From NCBI RefSeq assembly GCF_028401385.1, contig NZ_JAQOMR010000001.1:3516501-3580500 (forward strand): a stretch of DNA of 64,000 nt, given 5' to 3'. Of this stretch, positions 10,192 through 40,812 are shown piece by piece. How positions within the stretch are numbered: position 1 is the first letter of the stretch; each line of letters opens with the position of its first letter. The notes under the pieces are model-generated. The model was given only the letters and a program-made list of their open reading frames with translations. It was not told the origin of the DNA and ran no database searches. A program made the position numbers and the translations under genes. Source of the stretch: Marinicella algicola. Its GTDB lineage: Bacteria > Pseudomonadota > Gammaproteobacteria > Xanthomonadales > Marinicellaceae.

Positions 10192-10249
10192 TTTGAAATT
10201 ATTGGAGCGGGTAGCGGGAATCGAACCCGCGCGTTCAGCTTGGGAAGCT
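10192..10249 (-). repeat. Left attachment-site-like repeat (tRNA-Gly 3' fragment)
   Basis: On the minus strand this reads as the second half of tRNA-Gly(CCC): the anticodon arm (AGCTTCCCAAGCT), an intact T-arm with GCGGG/CCCGC pairing, the acceptor strand, an encoded CCA and about 9 bases beyond. The D-arm and 5' acceptor half are absent, so it cannot make a tRNA. It repeats 40756-40812, and looser similarity extends another 10-12 bases to the left. Confidence 0.8.
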
Positions 10250-10340
10250 ATCGAATTTACGAGCAAAATTAATGCTTCGTTTCAAGTCCAACGTCGCCCG
10301 CTCCGATCCGTTTTCCTCGTATTCACAATGCCTGTACGGT

Positions 10341-10925
10341 AGAACTCGCGGCACGGGCATCGGCTCCGGTCTGATTGCCGATGGGCACCTCTACCATGGT
10401 GCCAAAGGCGCGTCCGGTGATATCGGTCACATCCAGCTCAACCGGGAAAAGGTCCCGCTTTGCCGTTGCGGCAAGGTTGGCTGTCTTGAGGCCCATGCCG
10501 CCGGATGGGCGATTGCACGCGAATTGCGCGCAAACGGCTTCGAGGCAGAGGATGCGCACGATGTCGTCCGCCTGATCGATCAACACGTTCCGGAAGCGAT
10601 CGGCCTTCTGCGGGAAGCCGGACGCGCAATCGGCGAGGTGGTTGCCGGTGTCGTGTGCATTCTCAGTCCCAGAACGATCAGGGTCGGCGGCACGCTGGCC
10701 GCAGAACAGGAATATCTGGTCGCGGTACTGCGCGAGCGGGTTTATCAACGCTGTCTGCCGCTGGCGACCAACAACCTGATCATCGAAGCCACGTCGACGA
10801 GTGAAATCGGGTGCCTGACGGGCGCCGCCATTCTGCTGAAGCAGAAAATGTTCACAAGAGATGGCTCCGTACTCCTGCTGAAGCGATATCAGGAATGGCG
10901 TTTGGAAGATTTCGACAAAAAATAG
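10341..10925 (+). pseudogene. ROK family protein, C-terminal fragment
   Basis: Only the second half of a ROK (repressor/ORF/sugar kinase) protein is present. It begins at about GTGIGSGLIADG, followed by GAKGASGDIGHIQL and the ROK zinc-type cluster C-R-CGKVGCLEA, then an intact C-terminus ending at a TAG. ROK regulators and kinases run about 300-400 residues, so roughly 100-200 N-terminal residues are missing, including the nucleotide-binding motif and any helix-turn-helix. The frame runs open upstream into non-homologous DNA and the tRNA fragment. The truncation lies about 90 bases inside the left island boundary, so it was probably cut by integration or later deletion. It is unlikely to be functional. 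Confidence 0.65.
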
Positions 10926-10943
10926 CCACTAGAATCCAGCAAA

Positions 10944-10975
10944 CCGAATAACCCCGGCAGGGCGGGGTCATTCGG
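10944..10975. terminator. Hairpin between convergent genes (probable bidirectional terminator)
   Basis: CCGAAT-A-ACCCCG is followed by a 6-base loop and then CGGGGT-C-ATTCGG. This gives a 13-bp stem with one mismatch between the ROK fragment (plus strand) and tctA (minus strand). A TTT lies just past the stem on the minus strand, and there is no long T-run on either side. Confidence 0.5.
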
Positions 10976-11037
10976 CTCGCCTTGATGGACATCCCCATTC
11001 AAGCCTAGTTATTTGCTCAAACTCTGCTTATTGGGGG

Positions 11038-12521
11038 TCATCCCCTAAACCGAAGCAGGGAACGGATCAGCGGAACCGCCAGCGTCAATATGGCCGCCGT
11101 CAGCAGTACAACGGTGATTGGACGCGTGTAGAGGAAGTCATAGCTGCCGCCTGAAAGCGAGAGCGCCCGGCGAAAGTTCGCTTCGGCCATAGGTCCCATG
11201 ATCAACGCTAGAACAATCGGCGAGGCAGGGAACCCCCATTTCTGCATGAAATATCCGACCACGCCCGCAGCAAGCATGATGTAGACGTCAAACATCGAAT
11301 TATTCAGGGCATAGGTGCCCACGATGCAGAGCGCCAGTATCGCCGGCGTCAGGATGGAGCGCGGAACCTGGAGCACGCGACCGAGAATGCGCATGGCACC
11401 GAAGGACATAAACACCATGACGGCGTAGCAGAAGAGCATGCCGACAAAGAGAGTAAAGACCAGATTTGCGTGTTCCTGGAACAGCAGAGGGCCGGGCTGC
11501 AGTCCTTGCAGGGTAAGGGCACCGAGCATGATCGCCGTCACGGCATCCCCTGGAATGCCCAGCGTCAGCATGGTCAGAAGCGCACCACCTGTACAGCCGT
11601 TTGCGCCAGCCTCACAGGCGGCCACGGCCGTGATCTCACCCTTTCCGTAATTCTCCGGTGTTTTTGAGAACCGGCGAGCCTCATTATAGGCTACATAGGC
11701 AGCGATGTCCGATCCGGCGCCGGGGATCATACCGATCATGGTACCCATGCCGGCTGAACGGAAAACTGTCGGCAATAGCCCCCGATATACCGTCCATGGC
11801 GGCAGCAGCCGCCCCAGAGCCGCTTTTGTCTTCAGGCTCACAGCGGTTTTCTCCAGTGTGGAGAATGCCTCGGCAGCCGCAAACAACCCGATCATGACTG
11901 GAATGAAAGGCACCTGGTAAAGTTCGGTAAAGCCGCCGGTGAAGCGAGGAAATCCCCCATTGGATCCATGCCGACGGTTGCAATAAGCAGGCCGAGAAAG
12001 CCGGCGATCAATCCCTTGATTGGCGAGCGCCCGGAAATTCCCGAGATGATCGAGAGTCCGAAAACCGCAAGCCCGAAGGATTCCGCCGCGCTGAAATTCA
12101 GCGCGAAGCGCGCAATGATCGGCCCGAGAAAGATCAGGACGATGATACTGCCTGTACCGCCGATAAACGCTGAGATGGCTGCGGTTCCAAGCGCCAGGCC
12201 AGCCTTGCCCTTCTTGGTGAGTTCATAACCGTCAAGTGCTGTGGCGGCGGCTGCCGGCGTACCGGGGATACGCAGCAGGATCGCAGTTGCCGTCCCGCCA
12301 TGGACAGCGCCGAAAAACACACCACAGATCATCAGGAGACCGGAGATCGGATCCATTCCGAAAGTGAAAGGTAGCATGATGGCGACACCCATGGCCGCTG
12401 TCAGGCCAGGCATTGCACCGATGATGATGCCGAGCGCTACGCCGCAGACAGCGAGCACAAGCGCAAACGGATTGGCGGCCAGATTGGCAACGCCCTGCAT
12501 GAGCATATCGAGCTGATACAT
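11038..12521 (-). CDS. tctA: Tripartite tricarboxylate transporter large membrane subunit TctA, one frameshift
   Basis: The span is 495 codons after repair, the normal TctA length. TctA is the 12-segment channel of secondary transporters that take organic acids from a periplasmic binding protein. Family blocks seen are GAMPGLTAAMGVAIMLPFTF near the N-terminus, GGTATAILLRIPGTPAAAATA, and in the second half GMIPGAGSDIAAYVAYNEAR and GIPGDAVTAIMLGAL. The frame breaks at the GGGGG run near 11961; adding one G gives the continuous GGFPRFTGGFTELYQVPFIP. The start at 12521 has AAGGA upstream. It is last in a tctC-tctB-tctA order, 27 bases after tctB. The linked dgo genes suggest a sugar-acid substrate, which is inference. 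Confidence 0.88.
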
Positions 12522-12547
12522 ATTGTTTTTCCTTCTTCAGGCTCGGC

Positions 12548-13053
12548 TTATTCGAAGAAGCTGCCCATCGGCAGCGGCACCATCAAACCGCGCGCGAAGG
12601 CGACATAGATTACGGCAGTCAACCCAATCGCGATGAGGGCATTGACGAAGACGTTGCGGCGCCCCATCAGCCACATCAGCGAGAAAAGTAGGATCGCAGC
12701 GGAATCGGATAGCCGATGAAGTTAATCGCCGCCACGCAGATGCAGGTGATCGCCACGCCGAGCGCAACATTGGCGTATTGCGGCTTCTCCTCTTCAAGCG
12801 CAGCCGCTACCAATTCGGCGCGAAAGGCCTGAATAGCCATGGTGACGCAGAGTGCGATCAGCACGGTTGCGAAGATGACGGGAAAGCGTCCAGGGCCGAC
12901 ATCAGCGCTGAGGCGGATCTGTGGGAAGTTTCGCGTTTCGAGGATGGCGAGAACAGAGGCGATGCTCAAGACAATCGCGATAACGACAATGGCAACCCTC
13001 TCGCCATGCGTTATGGTTTGACGTGTTGGGGTAGGTTGGTTTGGTTCAGTCAC
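12548..13053 (-). CDS. tctB: Tripartite tricarboxylate transporter small membrane subunit TctB, one frameshift
   Basis: This is a small four-helix membrane protein of about 168 codons. The first helix is IVVIAIVLSIASVLAI, and the C-terminal helices include LLFSLMWLMGRRN and a final hydrophobic segment ending FARGLMVPLPMGSFFE. TctB proteins pair with TctA in tripartite tricarboxylate transporters and are poorly conserved, so the call leans on position and topology. Translation probably starts at GTG 13053, which has GGGAGG seven bases upstream. The frame breaks near 12705, in the CGATTCCGCTGCG stretch; the span of 506 bases (3n+2) means one base is missing. The gene lies between tctC and tctA on the same strand. 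Confidence 0.78.
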
Positions 13054-13115
13054 TGCCGTTCCTCCCGGCTGCTGGTAGACCCGGCGCGAAGGCGCCGGGT
13101 CCATAAAACAGTTTA

Positions 13116-14076
13116 TCAGTTCTGGGTGAGGCCAATACGCGGCACGAGGTCGGCGAAGAAGGCATCGTCACGCTGGATGGCTTCTTCGAACTCCGGTGCG
13201 TCGAGATAGGCGAATGTCATCTTCATGACCTTCATCTGCTCCTGGAAGGACTCTTCCTCGACGACAGTCTTGACCAGTTCACGCAGCGTGTTGACGACGT
13301 CTTCCGGCGTTCCCTTCGGTGCGAAGAGGCCGCGCCATGTACCGACATTGACGTCATAACCGAGTTCCGCAAGCGTCGGGACGTCCGGATAGAGTGTCGA
13401 ACGATGGTCATCCATTACGGCAAGGATACGCAGCTGCCCGGCATCGACATAGTTCGAGACTTCCGCAGGCGAGACCGTGACGGCCTCGATATGCCCGCCA
13501 AGCAGAGCCGTGACGGCGGGATTGGCACCGTCAAAGGGCACGTTGTTGAACTCGACGCCAGCAGCTTCACCAAACGCGGCGGCGGCCAGATGGTAGATCG
13601 CGCCCGTGCCGGAATTGCCGACGCGGAGCTTGCCGGACTCTTCCTTGGCCGAGGCCAGGAATTCCTCAAGCGACTGCCAGGGCGAGATCCGCGCGCACCG
13701 TGACGGCCGCCGGTTCGGCGTTCAGCCGTGCGATCGGCTGGAAGGAATCGGCCTTGAAAGCGGCAAGGCCGAGATGCGGCAGCGTGGTGATTTCAACAAA
13801 GCCCATGGCAATGGTGTATCCATTGGGTCGTGCAGCCATCAGCTGGGTCAGGCCGACGGCACCACCACCACCGGCTTTGTTGACGACACCCAGAGCCTTA
13901 GGGAACACCTTGTTGGCATGGTCGGCGAACGCGCGGGTCAGCAGATCTGTACCGCCGCCGGCAGCCGTCGGCACAATAACCTCCACAGGCCGCGAGGGAT
14001 AGTCTGCCGCAGGTGCGGCTGTGACAAGCGAAGCTACGCCAAGAAGCGCGCCGGCGAATGCAGGAAGAAATTTCAA
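13116..14076 (-). CDS. tctC: Tripartite tricarboxylate transporter periplasmic binding protein TctC, frameshifted
   Basis: This is a Bug/TctC-type solute-binding protein of about 320 codons with an N-terminal signal peptide (MKFLPAFAGALLGVASLVTA, cleavage near AAPA). The mature N-terminus DYPSRPVEVIVPTAAGGGTD is the classic Bug-fold entry, and VGNSGTGAIYHLA and NNVPFDGANPAVTALLGG follow. It should deliver a carboxylate ligand to TctAB. The start is TTG 14074-14076 with GGGAGG five bases upstream. The frame is lost near 13680 (GATCTCGCCCTGGCAG); the length of 961 (3n+1) fits two lost bases. The ligand cannot be read from sequence; the neighbouring dgoK and IclR genes make an aldonate or uronate plausible. 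Confidence 0.83.
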
Positions 14077-14226
14077 TTGAACCTCCCAAGGTTACTTTTC
14101 TAGATACGCCCAGACGGGCGCGGGGTTGCGAAAGTCAGAAAGGCTTTCGCGGTTGAAGCGATCGGCGCCGGATTGTCGGAAAAGGCGACAGTATCGCCGG
14201 CGCGGTTCACCGGGTTTCGCTTCACT

Positions 14227-15209
14227 TCAGCCCGACGTGTGGGCCAGAGAAGTGGATGGAAACAGTCCAAGTGCCTCGGCGAAGCGATGAAGTCCCGCGG
14301 GGGCGGTATTTCCGAGAAGGATTGGTTCGCAATCGCAGGCAACCCTGATCCCTTCGACATAACGAGCACAGAGATCACCATCACCGATAACGGGAAACGA
14401 CACGCTTTCCGTTATCCGCGTGCCAAATCGGCTGCGGGCAGAGACAAGCTCGTGACCGATGACGATGCCGGAGAGATAGTCGGCAAGCGCGACATGCTCG
14501 ATGCGACCGAAAAGACCGAGCGTGCGGGCCGAGAATATCTGATGGGCAAGATCGCCGGGACCGCTTTCCAGCGCCAGTTTTACGCCTTTGGCGAATGCCT
14601 CGGCAGCAACATCCGGGGCAGGCTTTTCACCGTCAGGCATCAGCCGCCCCAGGATCGTGGCGCGCCTGAGCGCGCTGAAAAGCTCGCCGGTCATGTAGCT
14701 GTGAAAGGCCTCGATGCTGCCGCCCCTCACTTCCACCCATTTGGAATGGGTGCCGGGCAACACGATCAGGCGCTCAGAATCGGTATCGGCATCATCGCCG
14801 AGCGCACCGGCGATCTGGATTTCTTCACCGCGCATGACATCGGGACGGCCATTCACCGGATCATAGCTCAGGCCCGGCGCGATCATGATCTCGACGCCGA
14901 GGGGGCCTTCACGCTGACAGCTTTCGAAGCGAGGCTGTGTGTGTCGGCAGGACATGGCACATAGGGCGCCTCGCGCCAGCCTTGCGCGCTGCCAACCATG
15001 CCGCAGGCGACCGCAGCCTGAATCTGAAGCCGTTCAACCCATTCACCGCACATAGAGACGAAGGCCTGTTCAAAACCCTCTCTACCGGAAGCCGGCAAGT
15101 TCTGAATTCCATGCCGACTGGCACGGGTCTCCAGCACCTTGCCGTCCTGATCCATGAGAAAGCCCCTCAGGCTGGACGTACCCCAATCGAGCGCTATCAG
15201 CGCAGCCAT
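14227..15209 (-). CDS. dgoK: 2-dehydro-3-deoxygalactonokinase (first copy), one frameshift
   Basis: DgoK phosphorylates 2-keto-3-deoxy-D-galactonate with ATP, the second step of D-galactonate breakdown. The N-terminus LIALDWGTSSLRGFLMD is the phosphate-binding entry of the family, and GMVGSAQGWREAPYVPCPA, PGTHSKWV and YMTGELFSALR follow, all characteristic of DgoK. After repair it is 328 codons; one base is missing near 14905. ATG 15207-15209 has the ribosome site AAAGGAG, which overlaps the stop of the upstream IclR gene, so the two are likely coupled. A second, divergent dgoK lies at 20162-21135. This copy sits between the regulator and the tct transporter. Confidence 0.87.
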
Positions 15210-15214
15210 TCCTG

Positions 15215-16027
15215 TTACTCCTTTGGTTTCCAGCCAAGTTCGGCGGAAATCGCGTCTGCCGTTGCTCGAACCACTGGCCCCAGTGAACGCATACGTTCCT
15301 CCGGCATATACGGCACGGCACTCGCGATACTTACGCCAGCCACAGCTTCACCACGGACATCGAGAATCGGTGCTCCGACACAACGGATACCCAGTTCGTT
15401 TTCCTCGAAATCGAGTGAGAAGCCGTCTGCCACATAGGCATCCATGCCCTGTTCGAACTCGCTCCACGGCGCCAACTGCGGTCGCTCGTCGCTCTGAGCG
15501 CTGAAGGCGCAAGCCTGTTCGTAGAGGCCCTTCCAGGTCGATTTGGGCAGACCGAGCATCAGCCCCTTGCCGACACCGGTCGATGCGGCAGGCATGCGCT
15601 TTCCGATACGCGAACGCATTTCGAGGCCACGGCGACCGGGGATCTTGGCGAGATAGAACAGCGTTGCCCCATCAAGTTCGGCAAGATGGACTGTGTCGTT
15701 GGTCTTGCGCGCCAGCGCTTCGAGATGCGGCTTTGCCAGTGCGACCAGCGGGCGCTGTTCCAACCCCGCCATACCGAGCCGGATGAGCTTGGGCCCAATC
15801 AGATAACCGCTATACGGCACATGATGAAGATACCCCTCGGCGACCAGATTCCCGAGCATGCGGTGAACAGTGCTGCGGGGCTTCCCGATTGCTGCGGAAA
15901 TTCCCTTCACGTCGGAAATCCCGTCCGCCACGCATTCGAGAATGGCGAGGCCGCGGCTCAGCGTCTGCGTGCCGGCAGGAGCGCTTTTCGGGCCATCAAT
16001 CGGGTCTTTGTCTTCGGTTGTCGTCAT
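15215..16027 (-). CDS. IclR family transcriptional regulator (first copy)
   Basis: This is a 270-residue IclR-type regulator. The N-terminal winged helix-turn-helix (TLSRGLAILECVADG, then KPRSTVHRMLGNLVAEGYL) is followed by the ligand-binding domain with RIGKRMPAASTGVGKGLML and a conserved ELGIRCVGAPI block. IclR proteins often sense small acids and act as repressors or activators. The start is placed at ATG 16027 (MTTTEDKD), which has AAAGG nine bases upstream; the frame extends eleven codons further but without support. It heads a likely transcript with dgoK and possibly tctCBA. A 13-bp motif in its own promoter recurs in front of dgoD, so it probably controls both transcripts. The frame is intact. 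Confidence 0.88.
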   Translation of the reverse strand: MTTTEDKDPIDGPKSAPAGTQTLSRGLAILECVADGISDVKGISAAIGKPRSTVHRMLGNLVAEGYLHHVPYSGYLIGPKLIRLGMAGLEQRPLVALAKPHLEALARKTNDTVHLAELDGATLFYLAKIPGRRGLEMRSRIGKRMPAASTGVGKGLMLGLPKSTWKGLYEQACAFSAQSDERPQLAPWSEFEQGMDAYVADGFSLDFEENELGIRCVGAPILDVRGEAVAGVSIASAVPYMPEERMRSLGPVVRATADAISAELGWKPKE

Positions 16028-16090
16028 TGGTTTGTACCTTTGCTTCTTTCCTACTGCCACATAAAATTTGTGTCAAATAAAATATTACCT

Positions 16091-16108
16091 GTTCATTATA
16101 TGAGACAA
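16091..16108. promoter_or_regulatory. Candidate operator upstream of the IclR gene
   Basis: This imperfect inverted repeat, TGTTCATTATATGAGACA, contains the 13-base core TCATTATATGAGA (16094-16106). The same core is at 19225-19237 on the other strand inside a perfect palindrome in front of dgoD. It lies 64 bases upstream of the chosen IclR start in AT-rich DNA. The likely ligand is the IclR protein encoded next to it, which is inference. Confidence 0.5.
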
Positions 16109-16214
16109 TAGAGCGAAAGGAAAGAGAGAAAATGCAACCTTCGCCCCCCGGCGCGAAGATAAGGTTCAAGCAATTCTGTCTGAGACAACCGTTTTGAACC
16201 GACCAGACGCCCGG

Positions 16215-17152
16215 TTACTGCGGCACCCTGGCCGGAACCGACCGACCGGCGAAATGGGCCGCCAGGTTTTCAGCAAAGAGATCGGACATCGCCTTGCGCG
16301 TTTCGTTGGTGGCGCTTGCCATATGCGGCGTCAGCACGACGTTATCCAACGCCTTAAGCGCCTCTGGTACGTGCGGTTCATTCTCGAATACATCGAGCCC
16401 CGCGCCCGCGATTGTTCCATTCCGAAGCGCTGCGATCAGCGCGGTTTCGTCAACGACAGTTCCGCGGGCAACGTTGATCAGATAGCCTTCGGGGCCGAGG
16501 GCCGAAAGAACCTTTGCGCCGATGAGACCACGGGTCGACGGGCCGCCATAGGTGGTCGCAACGAGAAAATCGACGTTGGCCGCCAGCTCTTCCGGTGTCT
16601 CCTGAAAGCGATAGGACACGCCGTCCACCGGGGCGCGATCAGTATAGGCGATATCCATGGAAAACGCTTCAGCGCGTCTGGCGATGGCTGTGCCAATCCG
16701 TCCGAGGCCGACAATACCGAGTCGGGAACCGCTGACTTTTTCGTAAACGGGAAGCCGCCATCGACCCATTTGCCTTTGCGAACAAAACGGTCGGCAACGG
16801 GCGTACGCCTGGCAACCGACAGCATCAGGCCGATGGCATGGTCGGAAACGTCATCCGTCAAAACGCCGGGCGTGTGGGTCACGATAACCCCATGCTTATG
16901 CGCCGCGGCGACATCGACGCCGTCATAGCCAACGCCGAAAACCGACAGGATTTCGAGATTGGGAAATTGAGCAATAAAGTCGGCGGTGACGTTCGATTCG
17001 CCATTGGCGGCGAGCGCACGGATGCGGGGAATAAGCGCCTCCAAGTCACCGCGCGCCACGACCTCGTCGTAACGGTGATAGGCGTAGGCTTCCTCCATCT
17101 GGCGGTCGAGCCTGGGCGGCAGCGGCGCGACGGAAAGCACATCGATAGACAT
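16215..17152 (-). CDS. D-isomer-specific 2-hydroxyacid dehydrogenase, one frameshift
   Basis: This is a 313-codon NAD(P)-dependent dehydrogenase of the GhrB/hydroxypyruvate reductase type. The N-terminal substrate domain includes LEILSVFGVGYDGVD and HTPGVLTDDVSDHAI. The nucleotide-binding motif is LGIVGLGRIGTAIARR, and the catalytic triad appears as Arg in LINVARGTVVDE, Glu in DVFENEPHVP and His in LTPHMASAT. Such enzymes reduce glyoxylate, hydroxypyruvate or 2-keto-gluconate; the substrate here is not clear. The start ATG 17152 has GAGG eight bases upstream. One base is missing in the A-run near 16740, and restoring it joins FPFTKK to VSGSRLG. It follows dgoA in the dgoD-dgoA operon, so it may process a keto-acid or aldehyde from that route. 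Confidence 0.87.
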
Positions 17153-17291
17153 TCTGATTTCCTCATTTGGCAAGGCTTCGCCGTCCGGACCGGGAGACAT
17201 CTCCGAGCCCGTTTCCAGCGACGATATTGATGGAGAGCGCTTCGCCGCCTGCCGTGGCATTGCAGAAGCGCTTGCTTTGATGCGCCGGACT

Positions 17292-17941
17292 TTAACCCGA
17301 GGCGCCCGTAATCCGGCGATACTCGGCCACCAGCGCCTGGGCTGAAGCAAAGATATCCTCGACGGACTTTCCGGACTTGTAGAGCGTCGAGCCGAAACCG
17401 AAGCCGGCCGCCCCTTTTCCATGAAGGCCGCCATGTTGGTGACGTCGACCCCACCGACGGGTAGAAGCCTTGTGCCCTTGGGAAGCACGGCCTTGATATC
17501 CGGCAGATAGTCAGGCCCCATTCGGCCCGCAGGGAAGATCTTCACTGCGCTCGCACCGGCCTTCAGCGCCCGGAAGCATTCCGTCGGCGTCAGCGCACCG
17601 GGCATGGTCGCCATTCCGTAGGAGACGGCCTTGCCGATGACGGCGGGATCGACATTGGGCGAAACCATCAGCGTACCGCCGGCCTCATGCAGCCGGTCGA
17701 CATCGGCAACATCGAGCACCGTACCGGCGCCAACAAGGACATCTTCCGGCAGCCGTGCCGAAAGCCTTACGATGGAGGTGAACGGATCCGGCGAGTTCAG
17801 TGGCACTTCGATGAAGCGGAAGCCGGCTGCAATCACCGCATCGGCGACAGCATCGACTTCTTCGACCGTAACCCCGCGCAGAATGGCGACCAGCGGCATG
17901 GCCGCAAATGCGTCGTCCAGAATATCGAGACCTTTTACCAT
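17292..17941 (-). CDS. dgoA: 2-dehydro-3-deoxy-6-phosphogalactonate aldolase, one frameshift
   Basis: This is a class I KDPG/KDPGal-type aldolase of about 217 codons. It cleaves 2-keto-3-deoxy-6-phosphogalactonate to pyruvate and glyceraldehyde 3-phosphate. It shows MPLVAILRGV, the catalytic Glu in FIEVPLNSP (residue 45), the phosphate-binding GAGTVL, and the Schiff-base Lys in AVKIFPAGR (residue 134). The frame breaks at the GGGG after AFMEKG (near 17420); with one G restored the end reads AAGFGFGSTLYKSG and runs to the TAA at 17292. The start overlaps the dgoD stop (ATGGTAA), indicating coupled translation. Placement between dgoD and dgoK genes favours the galactonate isomer over KDPG. Confidence 0.88.
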
Positions 17942-19082
17942 TCTGCGATGCTCCCATCTTCGTGCCGCCAGATCGGGTTGCGCCAGCGATGCCCTTCCTG
18001 CGAACGTTCGATAATTTTCTCTTCGTCGATGCTGACGCCGAGGCCTGGCTGGTCGAGAACGGGTAGATAACCGTTCTCGATCTTCAACGGCGTGGGGTCG
18101 GTCACATAATCGAGGACGTCATTGCCCTTGTTGTAATGAATGCCCATCGATTGTTCCTGGATGAAGGCATTGGGGAAATGAAGTCGAGCTGCAGCGAGGC
18201 GGCAAGCGCGATCGGTCCGAGCGGGCAATGCGGCGCAAGCGCGACATCATAGGTTTCCGCCAGCGTCGCGATCTTCATACCCTCGGTGATGCCACCGCAA
18301 TGGCAGAGGTCAGGCTGGACGATATCGACCATACGGGCTTCCATGATGGCGCGGAAATCATAACGGGTGAACATGCGTTCGCCGGTGGCAATCGGATAGG
18401 AAAGTCCGGAGGCGATCTGCGGTAGGCAATGGAGCTGCTCGGTAAGCACCGGCTCTTCGACAAACAGCGGATGGATCGGCTCCAGTTCGCGCAGCAGCGT
18501 CTTTGCCATCGGGCGATGGACGCGACCATGGAAATCAATCGCGATGCCGACATCGGGACCGACGGCTTCGCGAGCCTCAGCGGCACGAGCGACCGCTTCG
18601 TCCACCTTGCGGTGGCTGTCAACGATCTGCATTTCCGGGGTGCCGTTCATCTTGAAGGCAGTAAAACCCTTGGCGACGACTTCCTTCGCCTGACGGCCGA
18701 TATCGCCGGGACGATCACCGCCAATCCAGCAATACATGCGCATCTTGTCGCGCACCGCTCCGCCGAGCAACTGGTGCACAGGCACGCCGAGCGCCTTGCC
18801 CTTGATGTCCCAGAGCGCCTGATCGATGCCGGCAATGGCGCTCATCAGGATCGGGCCGCCGCGGTAAAAACCGCCACGGTAAAGCATCTGCCAGATGTCC
18901 TGGATATTGCGCGGGTCCTTGCCGATCACATAGTCGGAGAGTTCTTCGATGGCGGCCTGCACGGTGGCGGCACGGCCTTCGATAACAGGCTCGCCCCACC
19001 CGACAATACCTTCATCTGTCTCGATCTTGAGGAACATCCAGCGCGGGGGCACCTGCCAGGTTTTGAGTGCGGTGATCTTCAT
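17935..19082 (-). CDS. dgoD: D-galactonate dehydratase, one frameshift
   Basis: This enolase-superfamily enzyme of about 383 codons is very close to E. coli DgoD (382 aa) along its whole length. It dehydrates D-galactonate to 2-keto-3-deoxygalactonate. It shows [40 protein letters not shown], the metal ligand and catalytic His region AIDFHGRVH, the Glu ligands in FVEEPV and TGERMF, and the second His in [13 protein letters not shown]. The C-terminus [12 protein letters not shown] to [11 protein letters not shown] is in another frame; one base is missing near 18180. ATG 19082 is preferred over an upstream GTG because AAGGA lies seven bases before it. It is first in the dgoD-dgoA-dehydrogenase operon and has a strong palindrome upstream. 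Confidence 0.93.
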
Positions 19083-19242: not shown

Positions 19243-19324
19243 TTATTGCGTTTACCAGATGAAACTCGTGTCAGAACCAAACATCTGCGCGACGCCTTAC
19301 GCGCCCTATCGCCAGAGGCCGGCG

Positions 19325-31676: not shown

Positions 31677-32609
31677 TCAATCCTCCCTGAACAGGCTTCT
31701 AAGATAGAAGATGACGATCGGCATCAGCGTGAAGACCCAAAGCACTCCGATGGCAGACGCCATGCCGAGATTCCAGTTCTGGAAGGCCTGTTTGTAGACT
31801 TCGATCGACAGGACCGAGGTTGCCCGCACCGGTCCGCCGCCGGTCAGCGCGAAAATGATGTCGAACTGCTGCAGATTGCCGATCATGCCAAGCGCACCGG
31901 TGACGAGGAAGACGGGTTTGAGATGCGGCAGGATCAGGCGCCGCACAATCTTCAGATTACCGGCGCCATCGATGCGCGCCGCCTCTATTTGCTGGAAGTC
32001 CATGCTTTGCAGACCTGCCAGAAAGAAGGACATGAACAGCGGAATGGAAATCCAGGTTCGCGTCAGGATGACGGCCATCATAGCCCCGACATCGTTGGAG
32101 AGAAACTGTATTGGAGCGTTGACGGCCCCGATATCCATCAACAGCATATTGACGATGCCGTAGCGCCCGTTCAGCATCCAGGCCCAGATGAAGGCGCTCA
32201 CCGTTGACGGCAGGATCCATGGCAGCAACGTCATGGTGCGGAAGACCGCACGGCCCCGAAAATCCTGATACATCAGCAGCGCCCAGGAAAGGCCGAGAAA
32301 CATGGTCAGAAGCGTCGTGCCGGCGACAAAGATCGCCGTCGTCACCCAGGATCCAAGCACGTAAGGATCGGTGAGGATGGTTCTGAAATTCTCGAAACCA
32401 ATGAAGATCGGCTCCGTATCATAGATCGTGTACTGGTAGAGGGCCATGGACATGGCATCCAAAAAGGGCCAGGCCACCATGACCAGAAACGCAATCATCG
32501 CCGGGGCGAGGATCAGATAGGCAAAACGCCTGTCTGAACGTCTCAGATAGCCGGGCTTTCGCCGGGCCGGGCTTGTCGACCCCAGCTGGCGCGTGGTCGC
32601 CATGTCCAT
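31677..32609 (-). CDS. Sugar ABC transporter permease, MalF type, second system
   Basis: This is a 310-residue CUT1 permease. A basic N-terminus precedes the first helix (YLILAPAMIAFLVMVAWPFL). TMTLLPWILPSTVSAFIWAW, the EAA loop QIEAARIDGAGNLKIVRRLI and FALTGGGPVRATSVLSIEVY are typical of the family. GAGGA lies seven bases before ATG 32609. It sits ten bases after the binding-protein gene. The frame is intact. Confidence 0.93.
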   Translation of the reverse strand: MDMATTRQLGSTSPARRKPGYLRRSDRRFAYLILAPAMIAFLVMVAWPFLDAMSMALYQYTIYDTEPIFIGFENFRTILTDPYVLGSWVTTAIFVAGTTLLTMFLGLSWALLMYQDFRGRAVFRTMTLLPWILPSTVSAFIWAWMLNGRYGIVNMLLMDIGAVNAPIQFLSNDVGAMMAVILTRTWISIPLFMSFFLAGLQSMDFQQIEAARIDGAGNLKIVRRLILPHLKPVFLVTGALGMIGNLQQFDIIFALTGGGPVRATSVLSIEVYKQAFQNWNLGMASAIGVLWVFTLMPIVIFYLRSLFRED

Positions 32610-32619
32610 GTCACCGTCC

Positions 32620-33884
32620 TCAGTTCATCAGTTTTTCGATACGGCTCTGCATGTCGGCCGCAGCCGTTGCAGCATCTTTCTTGCCCAGCACGGCGGATTG
32701 AACCTCCTCCGAAACAATGGCGACATAATTGGCGCTATCCTTGAGAGAAGCGAGTTCGTTGAGCTTCGGCATGCCAAGAGAGACATTCCAGTCGACAATA
32801 TACTGGTCGGAGGTAACGATGTCGCTCGCCCTCGCCGACTTGGTGACCGGGATTGCGCCCAGCTTCTGGAAGTATTCGAGCTGGATCTCGTCATTCATTG
32901 TCAGGCCCGAAATCAGCTTTGCAGAGGGGCTCTCGGCTGAAAGGCCGCCGTCCACCATGCCTTCTTGTGTCTCGCGCATCACCAGAAGATGCCCCCATTC
33001 CATGGAATGCGGCGTCATGCCGGCCTCGGCCACCGGCATGGGGACCGGATAGACATATTTGACGAACGCTTCGCCCTCACCGGAGAAATCTTCCGCAAAG
33101 CCCTTTGCGACCGGCGCATCGAAATAGTAGGCACTCTCGCCTTGTCCGAACATGCGCCGTGCAGCCCCGCGATCGACATCAAGAGCGGAAAGTCCGCGAT
33201 CGACCAGATCCTTCATGAAGTCCAGGGTCTGGACCGTGGCTTCAGAATTGACGACCGGCTGGCCGTTCTCGTCGAAGATCGAGCCGCCAAAGGCCCAGAG
33301 CCAGAGCTGGAAATCGCTTGATACCAGATCGTCACCTTTGGTCATCATCGCATAAGGTGTGCTGTTCGGGTGGGCCTCCTTGACCTTTTCAAGATCGACG
33401 ACGAAGTCGTCGATCGTCGCCGGCGGCTCGTTAACCCCGGACGACTCCAGCACGTTGCGGTTGGAGACGAGGCTGATCGAGCCGATATTCCACGGCATAC
33501 CAACCTGCTTGCCTTTGACCTGACCCGCGGCCAACACTTCCGGCGGGAACATCGCCGCGAGCTTCTCCTCGCCGTAGAGTTCGTTGAAATCGACCACGTC
33601 GGGCATCTGGGCAAAGGTCGGTAGCCAGCGTTCCTGTGCCTGGTAAACATCAAGCGGCTGGCCGGTCCGGATCCTCAAAAAGACCGTCTTCTGCATATCC
33701 CCCAGGCGCTCGACAGCACATCAACCGATACGCCGGTTTCTTCGATCAGCTGGGTCATGACCGGCGCATTGCTGGGCTCGGCCGTGATCCAGTTCAGGAA
33801 TGTCACCTTGCCATCGGCGGCATGAGCGCCAAACGCACTCACCGAAAGCGCCAGCGTTGCAACGCCCGCTTTGAAAGCCATCAT
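32620..33884 (-). CDS. Sugar ABC transporter substrate-binding protein, second system, one frameshift
   Basis: This is a periplasmic binding protein (extracellular family 1) of about 422 codons. The signal peptide is MMAFKAGVATLALSVSAFGA with cleavage near AHA, and the mature start is DGKVTFLNWITAEPSNAPVM. One base is missing in the GGGG run near 33697; after it the frame continues DVYQAQERWLPTFAQMPDVV, then QVGMPWNIGSISLVSNRNVL, and ends SRIEKLMN. GGAGGAG stands before the start. The preceding gene in the transcript is an FAD-dependent oxidoreductase, so the ligand may be oxidised by it or be its product. The ligand is unknown. Confidence 0.9.
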
Positions 33885-33906
33885 CGTTTCTCCTCCAGTT
33901 ATCTGT

Positions 33907-36169
33907 TTATTCTACACGCAGTCCAAGCAGTGACACGGCGTGGCCCTGTCTGTTGGCCAGCCGCAGGCTCAGGCTGTCGATCTGTCTTTCCTCCGAAAGA
34001 TCGACAGCAAGGACAGGATTGCGATTGTCTCGATCTCGGCCACGACGCGGCCATTGGCGCTGATCGTGGCGTCATGAACAAGAAGCGGCATAACCCGGTC
34101 ATGGTGGCGGTATTGCACGCTTTCCAGCGGATGATCGTAATCGCAATCAAGATAGAGAATGAGTTTTGGGCGAGGATCGGCGTCTCGAAGCTGAGTTTCA
34201 CTTCAGGCGCCGTGTCCTCACGATCGGCCATCCAGGCATTGGGGGCGGACGTCGGCCTGAGCGGTCCGAATGTCAGGTTGGTGGCATCGAAGACATGCAG
34301 GGGATGGTCCGCGTCAAAGGCGATATTGGCGCCCCGGGCCGACGCTCGGGCACCCAGAAATCGAAGTTGTCGACGCCAAGCTCGCTTGGCGCTTCCTGTC
34401 GAGCCGTGGTCGAAACCTTGTCGAGGCCGCCTTTCTTGACCGCGACAAGACCGGTGATGCACTCGCTCGAAAGCCCGATCTCGACATCCGGGTTTTCCAT
34501 AAAACAGACAAAGACATATTGTGCCCGCGCAAGTTTCGGCAGTGGGATCGCGACCGTCTGTTCGCCAGCATCAAGCGGCAGCGAAACCGCGCTGACCAGT
34601 GTCTCCGGCGTATGGTTTTCAGGCTTCTCGGCAATCTTCAGTTCAACGTTGATCTCCGCCTGCCGCGCCGCGCGTACTGGCACATGAATCGTATTGTCGA
34701 TGTCGGTGCGTCCCGGCAAAAGCTGGGCGTAGCTGGCCGTCAGCTGCTTGTAGCCGTGATCATGGGCGAGGCCGGAGAATGCGAAAGTCGAGGATACGGC
34801 AATTTCCGCCGCACGCGCCAAGTTGCCGTCTGCCAAGGCATCGTAATGGGGCACATAATGGCCGGCACGAGATAACGCCCGCTTCAGGGCGGGAAGATAT
34901 TCCGGCCTCGCCACATCGCGCGGGAAAATTCCAGCCTTGACGCAAAGGGCTGCAGCCGTGCCGATCGCCTGGCCAACGGTCGACGAGGTGGCCATCACCC
35001 GCGACGAGCCGAAAGCGACATGAGAAGCGGACAGGAGCCTGCCATTGGTAAAGAGATTTTCGATATTGCGGCTGTACATGCAGCGAAAGGGAATGCCGTA
35101 GACGCCCTTGGCATGAAACTGATTGCAGCCATCGGCATCGCCATAAACGCCGTCGGCGGGATGTAGGTCGATTGACCAACCGCCATGGCAGACATCGTCT
35201 TCATGGACGATCTGGCGGACAATGTCCTTCTGTTTCAGTATATAGTCGCCTTCCGCCCGCCGGCTTTCGCGCTTGCCCGGAATGGTGCCGACCCATTCGA
35301 GCGCCAGATTGGCAGCTTCCGGAAATTCCCGGAATTCTTGATGTAGTTCCAGACGCCATAGACGATCTTCTGCAGCTCGACCTTGATCTCTTCCGACTGA
35401 TGGATCGTGTCCAGCCTGCCGCCCCATTCGATCCACCACAGCGAGCAACCCTGTTCGGTGGTGCGGAACCGGCGGTAGCGCGGAATGAGGCTAGGCACGT
35501 CTTTCAGCGCGAAATCGGGCGCGACATAATCGACGGGATGGCCGACATCCTTGGTGTAGAAATACATCGAATGGCCGAGCAGCTCGCCGTAATTATTGCC
35601 CGGCGCCATGGGTTCATCAAACTCGTCTGCCTTTTCCGCGCCCATGCGATAGGCCGCACCCGACATGTGAACGAGTATGCCGTCACCGCTCGAATCAGCA
35701 AAAAGGCGCCCAAAAGCCGGTACATGGTGCTGTTTTGAGAGTTAAAGGCATGGATCTCGCGAACGCGATTCTCCGTCGTCACCGCATGAAAAACCTGGGT
35801 GTTGACGAGCACGGTCAGGTTCTGCTCCCGGCTCACCCAATCCTGAACGATGCTGTCGAAGATGACGGGATTGCCGCCCGGATTGCGGAACTGATTTTCC
35901 AGCAGCAGCTCGTTGATGATCCCGCCCTCGCGGGCAAAGCGATTGTTGTTGCCGCCGTGGGAGGTGGCGCCCAGGATCCAGAGACGAACCTCGCTTGAGG
36001 CGTTGCCGCCCAGAACCGGCCGGTCCTGCACCAATGCGACCTCCAAGCCCTCCCGCGCCGCCGAAATTGCGGCGCAAACACCGGAAAGACCGCCTCCCAC
36101 AACGACCAGATCCGCCTCGATTTCAACGGTCGTCAGGTCACGCGGAGCACTGGCACTCTCAACAATCAT
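33907..36169 (-). CDS. FAD-dependent oxidoreductase (FAD_oxidored family), multiply frameshifted
   Basis: The full span is about 756 codons after repair. The N-terminus holds the dinucleotide motif LVVVGGGLSGVCAAISAARE (residues 21-40) and RPVLGGNASSEVRLWILGA, typical of the FAD_oxidored family found beside sugar transporters. The middle keeps FADSSGDGILVHM and HGGWSIDLHPADGVYGD, and the FAD C-terminal part NLFTNGRLLSASHVAFGSSR followed by MATSSTVGQAIGTAAALC. The last 200 residues resemble a separate beta-rich domain. I count five single-base losses (near 35700, 35340, 34350, 34160 and 34030); the length of 3n+1 agrees. The start ATG 36169 has GGGAGA upstream. The substrate is unknown; it probably oxidises an imported sugar or sugar acid. 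Confidence 0.8.
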
Positions 36170-36180
36170 GCGTTTCTCCC

Positions 36181-36212
36181 ATTTCAATAATAGAAATATC
36201 TATAATTGAAAT
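36181..36212. promoter_or_regulatory. Large imperfect palindrome upstream of the FAD oxidoreductase operon
   Basis: ATTTCAATAATAGA and TCTATAATTGAAAT form a 14-bp inverted repeat with one mismatch around an AATA spacer, centred about 27 bases upstream of the start codon at 36169. It is probably an operator for the IclR regulator at 30118-30840. Confidence 0.55.
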
Positions 36213-36728
36213 CATGATGTCAAGTCTGAATCAATGCATGCTACGGATGCCGCCGAGCAGCCCTTGCTTCTATCCGAGCTGTACCGCTGCCCGAACACCT
36301 CAAATCCAGCGCCAAATCAAAGTACTTATCCATATGCTCTAGAAAGCTCGAGATCCTCGTTCATCAGACTTTGTAATGCCATAACGTATATGACGCTTCA
36401 GGATATTGTTCATCGCGAGGTAACGGTTGTCATCAAGCCTAGATGCAGTGTTTCAGAGCTGCCTATCGAGCTTGAGACCAGATTCTGCATTGAATGACCT
36501 CCTATCTCCGCTGGAAGTCACCAAAAGAGGAAACTGCCAGCAATCCAATAGACGAGAACACCGCCATCGGCATGCAAGCCTGAGATCGCGGATTACCCTC
36601 GCGAAGCGCATGGCCCCAAAGGGCAAGTTGCCGAGGGCCTTGACAGTATTACCGCTCTGGAACGCCCAATAGGTTAAGCGGTCCGGCCCAAGTTGAGGTG
36701 ATCAGCCGCCGTTTCGCGCGGCTGACCC
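36213..36728. other. Stretch without a recognisable gene
   Basis: This lies between the palindrome and the IS3 element. An 87-codon reading frame starts near 36234, but its translation matches nothing I recognise and has no ribosome site. It may be the remains of an older gene near the insertion sequences. Confidence 0.4.
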
Positions 36729-37922
36729 GGTAATCCCCCGAAAAATAATGGGCTTCAAAAGTAGAATTTTCTCGGGTTTTATGACTGAGGAGATTTTGAT
36801 GAAAAAGACGAGATTTAGCGAAGCACAGATTATTGGCATTCTGCGTCAGGCAGAAGGTGGCGTTCCTGTGCCTGAACTTTGCCGGGAGCACGGGATGAGT
36901 TCAGCGAGTTTTTATAAATGGCGGGCCAAATATGGCGGCATGGATGCGTCGATGATCAGCCAGATGAAAGCGCTGGAAGACGAGAACCGCCGTCTGAAAA
37001 AGATGTATGCGGAGATGAGCATGCAAACCGAACTGCTGAAAGAGGCTTTGGGAAAAATGACGCGGCCATCTCTACGCCGGGAGGTGGCCGCGCAAGCCGT
37101 GGCGATACGTGGGGTGAGCATAGCACTTGCCTGCCGAACGTTCGGTGTCAGCGAAACTTGCTACCGATACAAAGGCAAACGCAATGATGAGAATGAACAG
37201 ATCGCCGATCTTCTGACCGGCTTGACGCAGGCAAAGAAGAACTGGGGCTTTGGCCTTTGTTTTCTCTATCTGCGGAACGTACAGGGACGGCGCTGGAATC
37301 ATAAGCGTGTTTATCGCATCTACCGCGCGCTTGAGCTGAACCTCAGGATCAAGCCACGCCGGCGGCTGAAACGGGAAAAACCGGATACACTCAATGTCCC
37401 GACAACGCCGAACGCGGTCTGGTCCATGGACTTTATGGCGGATCGGCTGGCCGATGGCCGGCAGTTTCGGCTTTTGAATGTTCTGGATGACTTTAACCGT
37501 GAGGGGCTTGGCATTGAGGTCGATTTCTCTCTACCTGCGGAGCGTGTCATCCGTAGCCTGAACCAGATCATTGAGTGGCGCGGCAAACCGCTGGCAATAC
37601 GTGTTGACAATGGCCCGGAATATGTCAGTGGAAGGCTTATGGACTGGGCTGAAAATCAGGGCATTGCGCTGAATTACATCCAGCCTGGAAAGCCGCAGCA
37701 GAACGCTTATGTCGAACGCTACAACCGGACAGTACGACACGAATGGCTTGACCAATACATCATCGAGAGTATCGAAGAGGCGCAGGCGTTCGCCACACAA
37801 TGGTTATGGAGCTATAACAACGAGCGACCCAATATGGGCATCGGCGGAATGACACCCGCACAGAAACTGAAAATGGCTGCGTGAATTCTACCAAAAAGCC
37901 CCGTTAAAAAGGGAGGATTACC
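36729..37922 (+). mobile_element. IS3-family insertion sequence
   Basis: The element is 1,194 bp. The left end is GGTAATCCCCCG and the right end, read inward on the other strand, is GGTAATCCTCCC; further matching (GGG.CTT...GTAGAATT) extends the imperfect inverted repeat. ACCC flanks both ends (36725-36728 and 37923-37926), a possible 4-bp target duplication. It contains one transposase gene. Confidence 0.8.
36799..37884 (+). CDS. IS3-family transposase, OrfA and OrfB fused in one frame
   Basis: The N-terminal part is an OrfA-type helix-turn-helix ([20 protein letters not shown], then [20 protein letters not shown]) with a leucine zipper ([20 protein letters not shown]). The C-terminal part is OrfB with HTH_21 and the rve integrase core. 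The DDE residues are Asp in WSMDFMAD, Asp in RVDNGPEY and Glu in [11 protein letters not shown]3 elements normally need a -1 ribosomal frameshift to join OrfA and OrfB; here they are continuous through LGKMTRPS (near 37055), where an A-run GGAAAAATGA lies. One missing A would create this fusion artificially. ATG 36799 has GAGGAG six bases upstream. Confidence 0.85.
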
Positions 37923-38212
37923 ACCCCATGTGAGCTCCGCGCATCTTTCACCCACGATTGAGGAACCTGGAGCAACCCATCGAACGGACGAATGTCAGGC
38001 TGGCTGTTCGGCGCGATGAGGATGATCCGCTGTCCGACAGGGCGCTCGCCCTGTTGCGCTTAGCGGCCATTAATTTCTAACTGTCAACGGCGGCGTAAAA
38101 ACCGGCCACGGGGCGGAGCAAAAGTCGGCCACCTCGGGCGCAGGTATGAGGCCCGCGGGAGGGCGTAGCCCGAGCGGGGCCTCATACCTGCGTAGCGATT
38201 TTCTGAAGGGTT

Positions 38213-38971
38213 TCAGCTGGCCTTTCGGGCACGGCTTTGGGCGAGACGATAGCTGTCGCCATTCATTTCGAGAATGTTGACATGGTGCGTGACGCGGTCG
38301 AGCAGAGCGCCGGTCAGGCGCTCGGATCCCATGATTTCGGTCCATTCATCAAAGGGCAAATTGCTGGTGATCAGGGTGGCGCCCCGCTCATAACGTTGCG
38401 AGATCAACTCGAACAGCAGTTCCGCGCCAGTCTTGGAGAGCGGCACGAAGCCGAGTTCGTCGATGATCAGCAACTTGTACCCTGCCATCTGCTTCTGGAA
38501 ACGCAAGAGGCGCCGCTCGTCACGGGCCTCCATCATCTCGCTGACCATGGCGGCGGCTGTGGTGAAGCCAACGGACAGGCCCTTCTGGCAGGCTGAAAGG
38601 CCGAGGGCGAGCGCTATGTGCGTCTTCCCGGTTCCGCTGGGGCCGAGAGCGATGACGTTCTCGCGACGCTCGATCCATTCGCAGCGGGCCAGCTCCAGCA
38701 CCTGCATCTTGTTGAGCTTCGGGATGGCGGCAAAGTCGAAACTGTCGAGGCTTTTGACGACCGGGAATTTGGCTGCCTTGATACGCCGCTCGACCTTGCG
38801 ACGATCCCGTTCGACCATTTCCCGCTCGGCAAGCCGGCTGAGGTACCCGATGTGGTCGACGCCCTCGGTGGCGCAAAGCCGGGCCAGTTTCTGATACTCC
38901 CGCTGGAAGGTCGGCAGCTTCAGGGTCTTGAGGTCGTGGGCAAGCAGAATCTCGGGTGCTTCGGTGCTCAT
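38213..38971 (-). CDS. istB: IS21 helper ATPase IstB
   Basis: This is a 252-residue AAA+ ATPase related to DnaC. IstB loads onto target DNA and stimulates the IstA transposase. Walker A is ALGPSGTGKTHIALALG, Walker B is LLIIDELGFVPL, and ITSNLPFDEWTEIMGSERLT is the family sensor region. The ATG at 38971 overlaps the istA stop (ATGA), standard for IS21. A longer in-frame extension upstream lies inside istA and is rejected. The frame is intact, so this half of the element could still be active. Confidence 0.92.
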   Translation of the reverse strand: MSTEAPEILLAHDLKTLKLPTFQREYQKLARLCATEGVDHIGYLSRLAEREMVERDRRKVERRIKAAKFPVVKSLDSFDFAAIPKLNKMQVLELARCEWIERRENVIALGPSGTGKTHIALALGLSACQKGLSVGFTTAAAMVSEMMEARDERRLLRFQKQMAGYKLLIIDELGFVPLSKTGAELLFELISQRYERGATLITSNLPFDEWTEIMGSERLTGALLDRVTHHVNILEMNGDSYRLAQSRARKAS

Positions 38972-40560
38972 GCCGCTTCTCCCTTCCCCGATGACAAGAG
39001 GCCCATGTACGCCTTCGCCGATGTCGTCTCGACGGTTGCTCTCGGCAGGTAGGGATAGATCGACAGATCCAGTCGCGGCGGCCGGCGCTCCACCCGGCAA
39101 AGAATCAGATGTTTGACGGCGTCGAAGCCAATCGCGCCGAGTTGCAGGGCTTGCTTGATCGCCGCATGCAGGTCAGCCATATCGAAGCTTTCCAGCAGTC
39201 GAAGAACCTGCACGTATTCTCGCCGGCCATGCTTTGCCATGCGGCCTTCCATCAGCCGGCACAGTGTCGCAAACTCCTCCGGCAGAGCCCAGCCCTGCAG
39301 AGGGCCGCCTGATCCAGCGCATTGATCTTCTGTTCGATCAGCGGCAGGTAATGAACAGGGTCGAAGATGACATCTTCCCGATCCCAGCTCCTGGGATGGC
39401 GGGCGATGATCTCGCCGCGGCAACCAATCACCACCTTGTCGACATAGCCTCGAACCCAAACGTCCTGATGACCGTAGGCGACAGGCACGGAATAGTCACC
39501 GGATCGCCGTGCGCTCTTTGCGCACGCGACGATCCGGCACTTTGAATATGCGCATCGTTCCGAACGGAAATCGTTCCCGATCTCCTGGCCGATGCGCGGG
39601 TTTTGTAGCGAACGAGAGACTGGGCCGTCACCCTGGCGCTGGCTTGGTCGCAGGCGTCAAATGGCGACGCTGGCAAGGACTGCATGGCAGCCAGATCGCG
39701 CTGCAGCCGTTCACCGATCGTCTCGCTCTCACCGCGCAGCCTGTCACATTGGCGCTTCCGGCACTGTTCTTCCAGAAAGGCATTGAACGCATCCCAGGTC
39801 GCAAACTGCGGGATGGGGACCATGAAGTTACGCCGGGCATAACCGACAAGGCCCTCGACGTTACCCTTGTCATTGCCCTTTCCGGGCCGGCCATAGCGAT
39901 CCCGGATCAGGTAGTGGGACAGGAACCCGCTGAACAGTGTTGCCCGCTTACGCGTGCCGTCAGGCAGGATCCTCGCCACAAGGCAGCGATCATTGTCATA
40001 GACGATCGATTGCGGCACGGCCCCGAAGAAGGCGAACGCATGGACGTGGCCATCAATCCAGGCCTCGGCCACCGCCGCCGGATAAGCCCGCACGTAGCAG
40101 CCGTCGCTATGCGGAAGGTCGAGCACGAAAACCGGGCTTTCTGCTCGACACCGCCGATCACCACCGTCGCCTCACCGAAATCCGCCTGCGCATGGCCGGG
40201 CGGATGAGAAAGCGGCACGAACACTTCCTGACGGCGCTGTTCCCGCTCCCGGATATAGTCCTTGATAATCGTATAGCCGCCGGTGAACCCGCACTCATCA
40301 CAAAGCCGGTCGAAAACACGCTTGGCCGTATGGCGCTGTTTGCGCGGCACGTGTCTGTCTTCATCCAACCAGTGGTCGATCGTCGAAACGAACGCGTCCA
40401 GCTTCGGCCGCCGGACTGGTGATTGTCGCTGATAGCCAGGTGGCGTCGAATACGACAGCATCTTCGCTACGCTGTCGCGGGATATGTTGAAGTGTTTGGC
40501 TGCCTGACGCCGGCTCATCCCTTCCGAGACGGCCAGACGAACCTTCAGATAAAGATCCAC
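38968..40560 (-). pseudogene. istA: IS21 transposase IstA, interrupted and frameshifted
   Basis: IstA fragments occur in three frames. The N-terminal helix-turn-helix is LAVSEGMSRRQAAKHFNISR and is followed by IIKDYIREREQRRQEVF. The rve core begins GHAQADFGEATVVIGG and continues, after a break near 40120, with YDNDRCLVARILPDG and GNDKGNVEGLVGYARRNF. A foreign stretch of about 104 bp at 39499-39602 separates LVRYKT from DYSVPVAYGHQDVW. Another break near 39300 precedes the C-terminus (WALPEEFATLCRLMEG to KAYMGLLSSG). The single-base breaks match the window-wide pattern, but the inserted block is a real disruption, so I call it a pseudogene. Confidence 0.75.
39499..39602. repeat. RIME-like palindromic repeat inserted in istA
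   Basis: This stretch of about 104 bp interrupts the istA coding sequence. It starts with a strong hairpin (GGATCGCCGTGCGC, a 5-base loop, then GCGCACGCGACGATCC) followed by GGCACTTTGAATATGCGCAT and a second weaker palindrome around TTCCGAACGGAA. The layout (GTGCGC hairpin, then CACTTTG, then GCGCAT) resembles, from memory, the roughly 108-bp RIME1 elements of rhizobia. Confidence 0.5.
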
Positions 40561-40694
40561 GGTGTAAATCCTCTGTCCCTCCTGCGCTCATTGCAGAAGG
40601 AAGATAGGTGGCCGGATTTTACTCCGCCCGCGGACGAGATTATTCCGCCGCTTTCGTGGCCGACTTTTGCACCGCCGTTCTCAAGCGAACATTC

Positions 40695-40711
40695 GGCGGC
40701 CAAAAGCCGCC
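40695..40711 (-). terminator. Hairpin downstream of tRNA-Gly
   Basis: GGCGGC-CAAAA-GCCGCC is a perfect 6-bp stem with a 5-base loop, about 60 bases past the tRNA 3' end in its direction of transcription. No T-run follows, so it may only be a processing or pausing hairpin. Confidence 0.3.
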
Positions 40712-40755
40712 AAGTGAAACGCAGTATAACGAGTGAAACGTTTTCAGACTAACTA

Positions 40756-40812
40756 TTTGAAATTATTGGAGCGGGTAGCGGAATCGAACCCGCGCGTTCA
40801 GCTTGGGAAGCT
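40756..40812 (-). repeat. Right attachment-site-like repeat within tRNA-Gly
   Basis: This is the second copy of the repeat at 10192-10249, identical apart from one missing G near 40780. It covers the tRNA-Gly 3' half from the anticodon arm through the CCA end and about ten bases beyond. Confidence 0.8.

Follow-up and report, generated by a model that had tools for sequence, protein, structure and literature searches.

The tDNA islands mapped by Islander (PMC4383910) have a tRNA gene at one end and a displaced 3' fragment of it at the other, and the Islander paper places the anticodon loop among the usual crossover sites and describes a class 'A' in which attachment is centred on the anticodon. 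We have analysed a window of 64,000 nucleotides (bases 3516501-3580500 of contig C1, which is 4,303,775 bases long) from the 4.67 Mb genome of Marinicella algicola, labelled G000. In this window a 30.6-kb region lies between a tRNA-Gly(CCC) gene and a displaced 3' half of that gene. The region is probably a degenerate, composite remnant of tRNA-targeted integration at the Martelella tRNA-Gly(CCC) gene. It would be a tDNA island of an already known kind, a fairly ordinary genomic island, the parts of which seem to have been exchanged among species. Judged by the DUF475 protein encoded beside the tRNA, the closest named relatives of the genome are Martelella, which rank first at 81-88% identity (six of 80 loci kept), and all site comparisons are based on six Martelella relatives: M. 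mediterranea USBA-857 (G001), M. radicis (G002), M. lutilitoris (G003), M. mediterranea IOP_24 (G004), M. limonii (G005) and M. mediterranea 175.2 (G006). A same-genus search returned G000 alone.

The region is like the Islander islands in having a tRNA at one end and a 3' fragment of the same gene at the other. The two are on the same replicon, the fragment lies 3' (downstream) of the tRNA in matching orientation and starts in the anticodon arm, and both the 30.6 kb between the repeats and the 51 kb of the whole insertion (see below) are within the Islander length range of 2-200 kb. There is no overlap with a conserved domain; no listed open reading frame (ORF) of at least 120 aa overlaps the fragment at 10192-10249, and the ORF of a ROK-family gene starts to its right. 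Unlike the Islander islands, the region would not pass the Islander integrase filter, as no integrase gene was found in it (PF00589 search); its contents are mosaic and its tRNA, as assembled, is one base short.

The same tRNA-Gly half is also found in phages. There were 30 phage records, and five of the 20 listed are annotated tRNA-Gly genes and not phage attachment sites (attP). From these 20 we chose Rhizobium phage RHph_TM34, Burkholderia phage Mica and Gordonia phage Kuwabara, because in these three the match is not annotated as a tRNA gene. Alignment to the full tRNA shows that the three phage halves and the halves in G000, G001 and G002 share one starting position in the anticodon stem, give or take a base. 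The phage halves are 38 (RHph_TM34), 177 (Mica) and 122 (Kuwabara) bases from an annotated integrase gene, whereas no tyrosine integrase was found at the island, and the halves of RHph_TM34 and Mica are of the UCC type by anticodon whereas that of the island is of the CCC type. Because its inner edge matches that of integrase-adjacent phage halves, the repeat is very probably an attachment-site (att) scar. Among viral contigs, there were three pattern matches to the left end of the island, none with an adjoining tRNA half, and a longer pattern gave none.

Results

The displaced 3' half is at 10192-10249 and the tRNA-Gly(CCC) gene, with its encoded CCA, is at 40767-40839, both on the minus strand. 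The original prediction had identified a 58-bp repeat of the 3' half of this tRNA, and we confirm that the 58-nt stretch at 10192-10249 recurs, minus one G, at 40756-40812. It had also placed the repeat from the anticodon arm to past the CCA, and this is borne out, as the repeat runs from the anticodon stem to 11 bases beyond the encoded CCA. The inner 33 nt occur exactly twice in the window, and 100 dinucleotide shuffles gave a maximum of 0 matches with up to three mismatches, which excludes a chance origin. A similarity search of the whole G000 genome placed the 3' half at these two sites only, and a dispersed tRNA-derived repeat was therefore rejected. The next-best match is a separate tRNA-Gly(UCC), and the search revealed no second tRNA-Gly of the CCC type in G000.

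Rfam reports a minus-strand tRNA at 40770-40839 (without the CCA; 52.4 bits), the 3' end of which is directed into the region; ARAGORN called no tRNAs in the window, tRNA-Gly(CCC) included. There is an intact 74-nt tRNA gene in the same place beside the DUF475 gene in all six Martelella relatives, and the G000 copy has one T-arm base fewer. The complete tRNA predicted at the right-hand end is correct in position and in its polarity into the region, but this copy is one base short and it is the displaced half that has an intact T-arm. The missing base may be due to a sequencing or assembly error, which would suit an indel-prone assembly, or the tRNA may be altered.

The site is unoccupied in four of the six relatives (G003 to G006). 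In these genomes a backbone that the four have in colinear order starts no more than about 110 bases past the tRNA, and there is no half-tRNA at E 0.001. The same backbone ends at C1:3506103 in G000, where the tRNA match starts at 3557265. Measured against the unoccupied sites the insertion is 51 kb, made up of a 20.6-kb left part and the 30.6 kb between the repeats, and not the 30.6 kb originally given as the extent of the island. The left part carries an ATP synthase operon, a Crp-type regulator, a transglutaminase-like protein and an ndvB homologue (1403-9901, plus strand; three frame changes, but an intact 2834-aa frame in G003), which is outside the repeat pair and inside the 51-kb insertion. 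An empty site in which ndvB is joined through the tRNA to the DUF475 gene, as had been expected, was rejected: G003 to G006 have another gene beside the tRNA, and ndvB sits elsewhere in G001, G003 and G005 and has no match at 1e-50 in G002, G004 and G006.

The remaining two relatives, G001 and G002, have a 3' half besides the tRNA. The half is 28.9 kb from the tRNA in G001, and in G002 it is on contig C10 with the backbone, the tRNA being near the start of contig C2. The left end of the island (10250-10339) adjoins the half in G000, G001 and G002; the two together are about 145 bases that the three genomes have in common (84-89% identity), and the sequence outside the half differs. G001 is colinear with the window to 28867 (367 columns at 88.0% and 18,274 columns at 89.2%), and the stretch from there to its tRNA is taken up by other genes. 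Past the left end G002 has a different 6.4 kb, including the first half of an intact ROK-family gene (417 aa), the second half of which matches the window; beyond this gene there are other genes and then a block that matches window positions 28889-36404 at 94.8%. Only the C-terminal half of the ROK-family gene (10350-10925, plus strand) is present in G000, and the joint at 10339/10350 that deletes the first half is common to G000 and G001.

We refer to 10193-28867 as module 1 and to 28889-36404 as module 2. The G001 match ends at 28867 and the G002 match starts at 28889, and the joint between the modules (28868-28888) is continuous in G006. The 30.6 kb had been taken for one transferable unit and is a mosaic: G001 has module 1 without module 2, and G006 has module 2 elsewhere. 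Third-codon-position identity in module 2 is 88% to G002 (flanks 64 and 66%) and 87.5% to G006 (flanks 48%), and between G002 and G006 it is 88% as against 46-48% in the flanks. This divergence requires transfer between species and, on codon-position identity, makes a firm case for module 2. Third-codon-position identity to G001 in module 1 is 76%, as against 61 and 64% in the flanks.

In G006, module 2 (94.5%) and the end of a GntR gene are on an 18.9-kb contig (G006:C49) that is separate from the tRNA contig. It carries a UxuA/TRAP cluster, with an IS3-type transposase at the contig edge, and also a 2.3-kb block that includes Fic and DUF736 genes. The counterpart of this block on a 263-kb Martelella plasmid is 92.7% identical and lies near conjugal-transfer genes. 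Five of the eight plasmid records listed for this block are Martelella. Module 2 has thus passed from species to species, plausibly on a plasmid. Of the 2314 plasmid records with any match to module 2, none reached 80% coverage. The DUF736 and Fic genes on this contig (15032-17446) also resemble a Martelella plasmid block with a VbhA-type antitoxin.

In four of the six relatives the site has neither a second half nor a long colinear match to the cargo, in agreement with the original prediction. Vertical retention of the cargo was rejected with the caveat that G003 to G006 do have pieces of module 1, and pieces only, among the matches listed (40 candidates scored per genome). Most of the pieces among these matches are of one ABC ATPase segment (66-76% identity); the others listed are a galactonate dehydratase-like stretch (70%) in G004 and G005 and short pieces of the GntR end in G006 (81% over 298 bases and 91% over 126).

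Searched in all six frames, the G000 genome has 11 matches to PF00589, none of them in C1:3506104-3557345, serine integrases not being searched for. Nor did this search reveal a match in G001 from the half to the tRNA, or on G002 contigs C10 or C2. An integrative and conjugative element would carry integrase, relaxase and transfer genes; besides the absence of a tyrosine integrase, the 30 of the ORFs between the repeats that were scanned include no relaxase or transfer family, and a Pfam scan of the same 30 ORFs gave no phage structural or replication genes. Integration by a tyrosine recombinase, as originally proposed, agrees with an att-type repeat at the tRNA 3' end and the correct polarity; there is, however, no PF00589 match in the region, and a functional tyrosine-recombinase element is not supported.

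The outer left flanks of the occupied sites in G001 and G002 also contain additional DNA. There are 12.6 kb between the backbone and the half in G002, and 147 kb (C8:8000-155000) in G001, with genes for tRNA-Arg, -Gln, -Leu and -Val. A single accretion of 176 kb in G001 (backbone at C8:1516-7947, tRNA at C8:184 kb) was rejected because of the four other tRNA genes between, which make a rearranged left flank likelier.

Gene content and assembly quality

The genes of module 1 are on the minus strand unless stated otherwise. The ROK-family remnant is followed by a tripartite tricarboxylate transporter (TctA, TctB, TctC; 11008-14076, frameshifted in the assembly), a first copy of 2-keto-3-deoxy-galactonokinase (DGOK; 14227-15209, frameshifted), an IclR-family regulator (15215-16060) and a 2-hydroxyacid dehydrogenase family protein (16218-17152, frameshifted), the G001 orthologue of which is below any NCBIfam cut-off. 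There follow a 2-dehydro-3-deoxy-6-phosphogalactonate (KDPGal) aldolase (17295-17941) and a D-galactonate dehydratase (17938-19088), both frameshifted; their G001 orthologues score 272.7 bits (cut-off 207) and 662.7 bits (cut-off 311). A xylose-isomerase-like TIM barrel protein (19325-20128) and a second, frameshifted DGOK copy (20162-21135) precede a run from 21132 to 27814 that encodes a sugar ABC transporter (ATPase, two permeases and binding protein), a second enolase-superfamily protein and a DHDPS-family protein. The last gene of module 1 is a frameshifted GntR/FCD regulator (28132-28855, plus strand), the 3' end of which adjoins module 2 in G006 too.

By its gene families, module 1 fits D-galactonate catabolism along the De Ley-Doudoroff pathway. 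D-Galactonate clusters on Azospirillum plasmids have the same kinds of genes (DGOK, KDPGal aldolase, IclR and Tct) as module 1. They are plasmid-borne and more distant, the matches covering 23-42% of the query at 66-69% identity (12 records listed). Sugar-acid transport and catabolism, named at the outset as nearly the whole cargo, is borne out as its dominant content by the families of the scanned ORFs and by NCBIfam scores.

Module 2 (28889-36404, minus strand) encodes a second ABC sugar transporter, an IclR-type HTH protein and a FAD-dependent oxidoreductase. The tRNA-proximal end, between module 2 and the tRNA, is occupied by two insertion sequences (ISs). The first is of the IS3 type (36729-37922, plus strand; transposase 36748-37884), with ends taken from the G006 match. 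The second is of the IS21 type (38080-40683, minus strand; IstB 38213-39100, with weakly matching transposase ORFs at 39428-40560), and its ends are approximate, having been taken from partial matches in other genomes.

Counted against intact orthologues of at least 150 aa, ten of 17 module 1 genes and two of the five module 2 genes compared are interrupted in G000. Off the island the figures are four of eight in the left backbone and, in the right flank, one of four against G003 and two of four against G001. The interrupted genes still cover 0.97-1.00 of the length of the orthologue, and third codon positions are much more changed than first and second. In the right flank there are 10 frame-breaking indels in 7,012 columns against G003, compared with 6 in 9,176 (G003-G001) and 2 in 10,371 (G003-G002) in the controls; in the left backbone there are 57 in 8,912, compared with 9 in 4,249 in the control. 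Deletions make up 19 of the 24 frame-breaking indels in the two modules, and in the left backbone against G003 there are 29 deletions and 28 insertions. Taken together, the data suggest that the frameshifts are probably due to an indel-prone assembly rather than to gene decay.

The sequence just past the tRNA 3' end (40690-40766) is common to G002 (from 40690) and G001 (from 40723), and its last 37 nt or so to G006. These approximately 37 bases, which the unoccupied site of G006 has in common with the right junction of G000, are either an old scar or ancestral sequence. At the other junction, the two ORFs immediately left of the 3' half have no Pfam match, and 9908-9984, just outside the half, resembles (78%) an ISL3-family transposase region on a Rhizobium plasmid. 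When 50 more relatives were surveyed along with G000, six other genomes of the order (G041, G044, G046, G048, G049 and G055) had matches confined to the tRNA-Gly 3' half (81-84%), which may be scars or other tRNA-Gly genes. The conserved right flank is formed by the DUF475/TerC-family gene (41399-42487, plus strand), which adjoins the tRNA in all six Martelella relatives; there is a terC RNA motif (RF03067, 63.5 bits) immediately 5' of it, at 41270-41331 on the plus strand. The first block of the insertion, the ATP synthase operon, is left of the window at G000:C1:3506367-3513070. It has matches to beta, epsilon, a, OSCP-like, alpha and gamma subunits, in a gene order that we take to be reminiscent of the N-ATPase type.

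Discussion

The geometry of the scar and the phage precedents point to an original integration at the tRNA gene. An element with a tyrosine integrase would have recombined with the 3' half of the tRNA, restoring the tRNA on the right and leaving the displaced half on the left. The integrase would later have been lost, and copies of IS3- and IS21-type elements would then have filled the tRNA-proximal end. In this order of events the locus may have served as a landing pad at which catabolic modules were exchanged between species, namely the D-galactonate module (with G001) and the transport and oxidoreductase module (with G002 and the plasmid-like contig of G006). The likeliest route would be arrival on a mobile plasmid and then recombination, either homologous or assisted by ISs. 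There is also some possibility, which we consider doubtful, that the tRNA-Gly(CCC) gene in Martelella is a hot spot that is repeatedly refilled without an integrase of its own, the old att scar and left end acting as the landing pad; as one joint claim, this includes the trading of modules with a Martelella plasmid family.

A single metabolic island, all of whose cargo was integrated once at tRNA-Gly by a tyrosine recombinase that has since been lost, would account for the correct fragment, polarity and size, for the left end conserved in three species and for the coherent cargo. However, between half and tRNA G001 has module 1 and no module 2, G002 has module 2 whereas the contig that carries its half has little of module 1, module 2 is elsewhere in G006 and the two modules differ in divergence, and we regard this explanation as unlikely. 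The rearranged outer left flanks (ndvB in G000, and 147 kb with four tRNA genes in G001) and the lack of a PF00589 match in the assembled parts of the three occupied loci would suit a half-tRNA that arose not through site-specific integration but through duplication, or through recombination with some other segment that bears a tRNA or is rearranged, the repeat pair then being incidental to the cargo. The inner edge is, however, the same as in the integrase-adjacent phage halves, the half and left end recur together in three species and the polarity is that expected of integration, which leaves such an origin very improbable.

Two tRNA islands in tandem, the outer carrying the ATP synthase operon and ndvB and the inner the sugar-acid genes, would explain why a 51-kb insertion has an internal half, and this overlaps in part with the composite remnant that we favour. 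The sequence just outside the half resembles the right junction, and G002 likewise has its 12.6 kb between backbone and half. A tandem array is nevertheless rather unlikely, as there is neither a third tRNA half at the outer left edge nor a tyrosine integrase (PF00589), and ndvB and the left backbone have diverged from the relatives to a similar extent, which suggests that ndvB may be a relocated native block.

Several points weigh against the explanation that we favour, a composite remnant of integration at the tRNA gene. The 51-kb insertion showed no tRNA half at its outer left edge, and the join of half and tRNA in G002 is one that we infer across contigs C10 and C2. The third-position identity of flanks varies by locus (70 and 84% for G002-G003), and because of this the excess identity of module 1 is only suggestive. 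The plasmid-like character of the 18.9-kb G006 contig rests on 2.3 kb of it. Finally, there is no contrast in GC content between the region (57.6-61.0%) and its flanks (59.3-59.7%), as expected if the donors are within the genus.

The scar is as the original prediction described it, and the boundaries and the unit of transfer differ. Judged by their titles, no papers found in the literature on Martelella, tRNA-Gly and galactonate genomic islands describe this locus. Anyone relying on the repeat pair by itself would misplace the left boundary and mistake a mosaic for a single element; what moved was not the stretch between the repeats. The site is unoccupied in four relatives and occupied in three genomes, and the locus provides a case of sugar-acid breakdown genes spreading within a genus.

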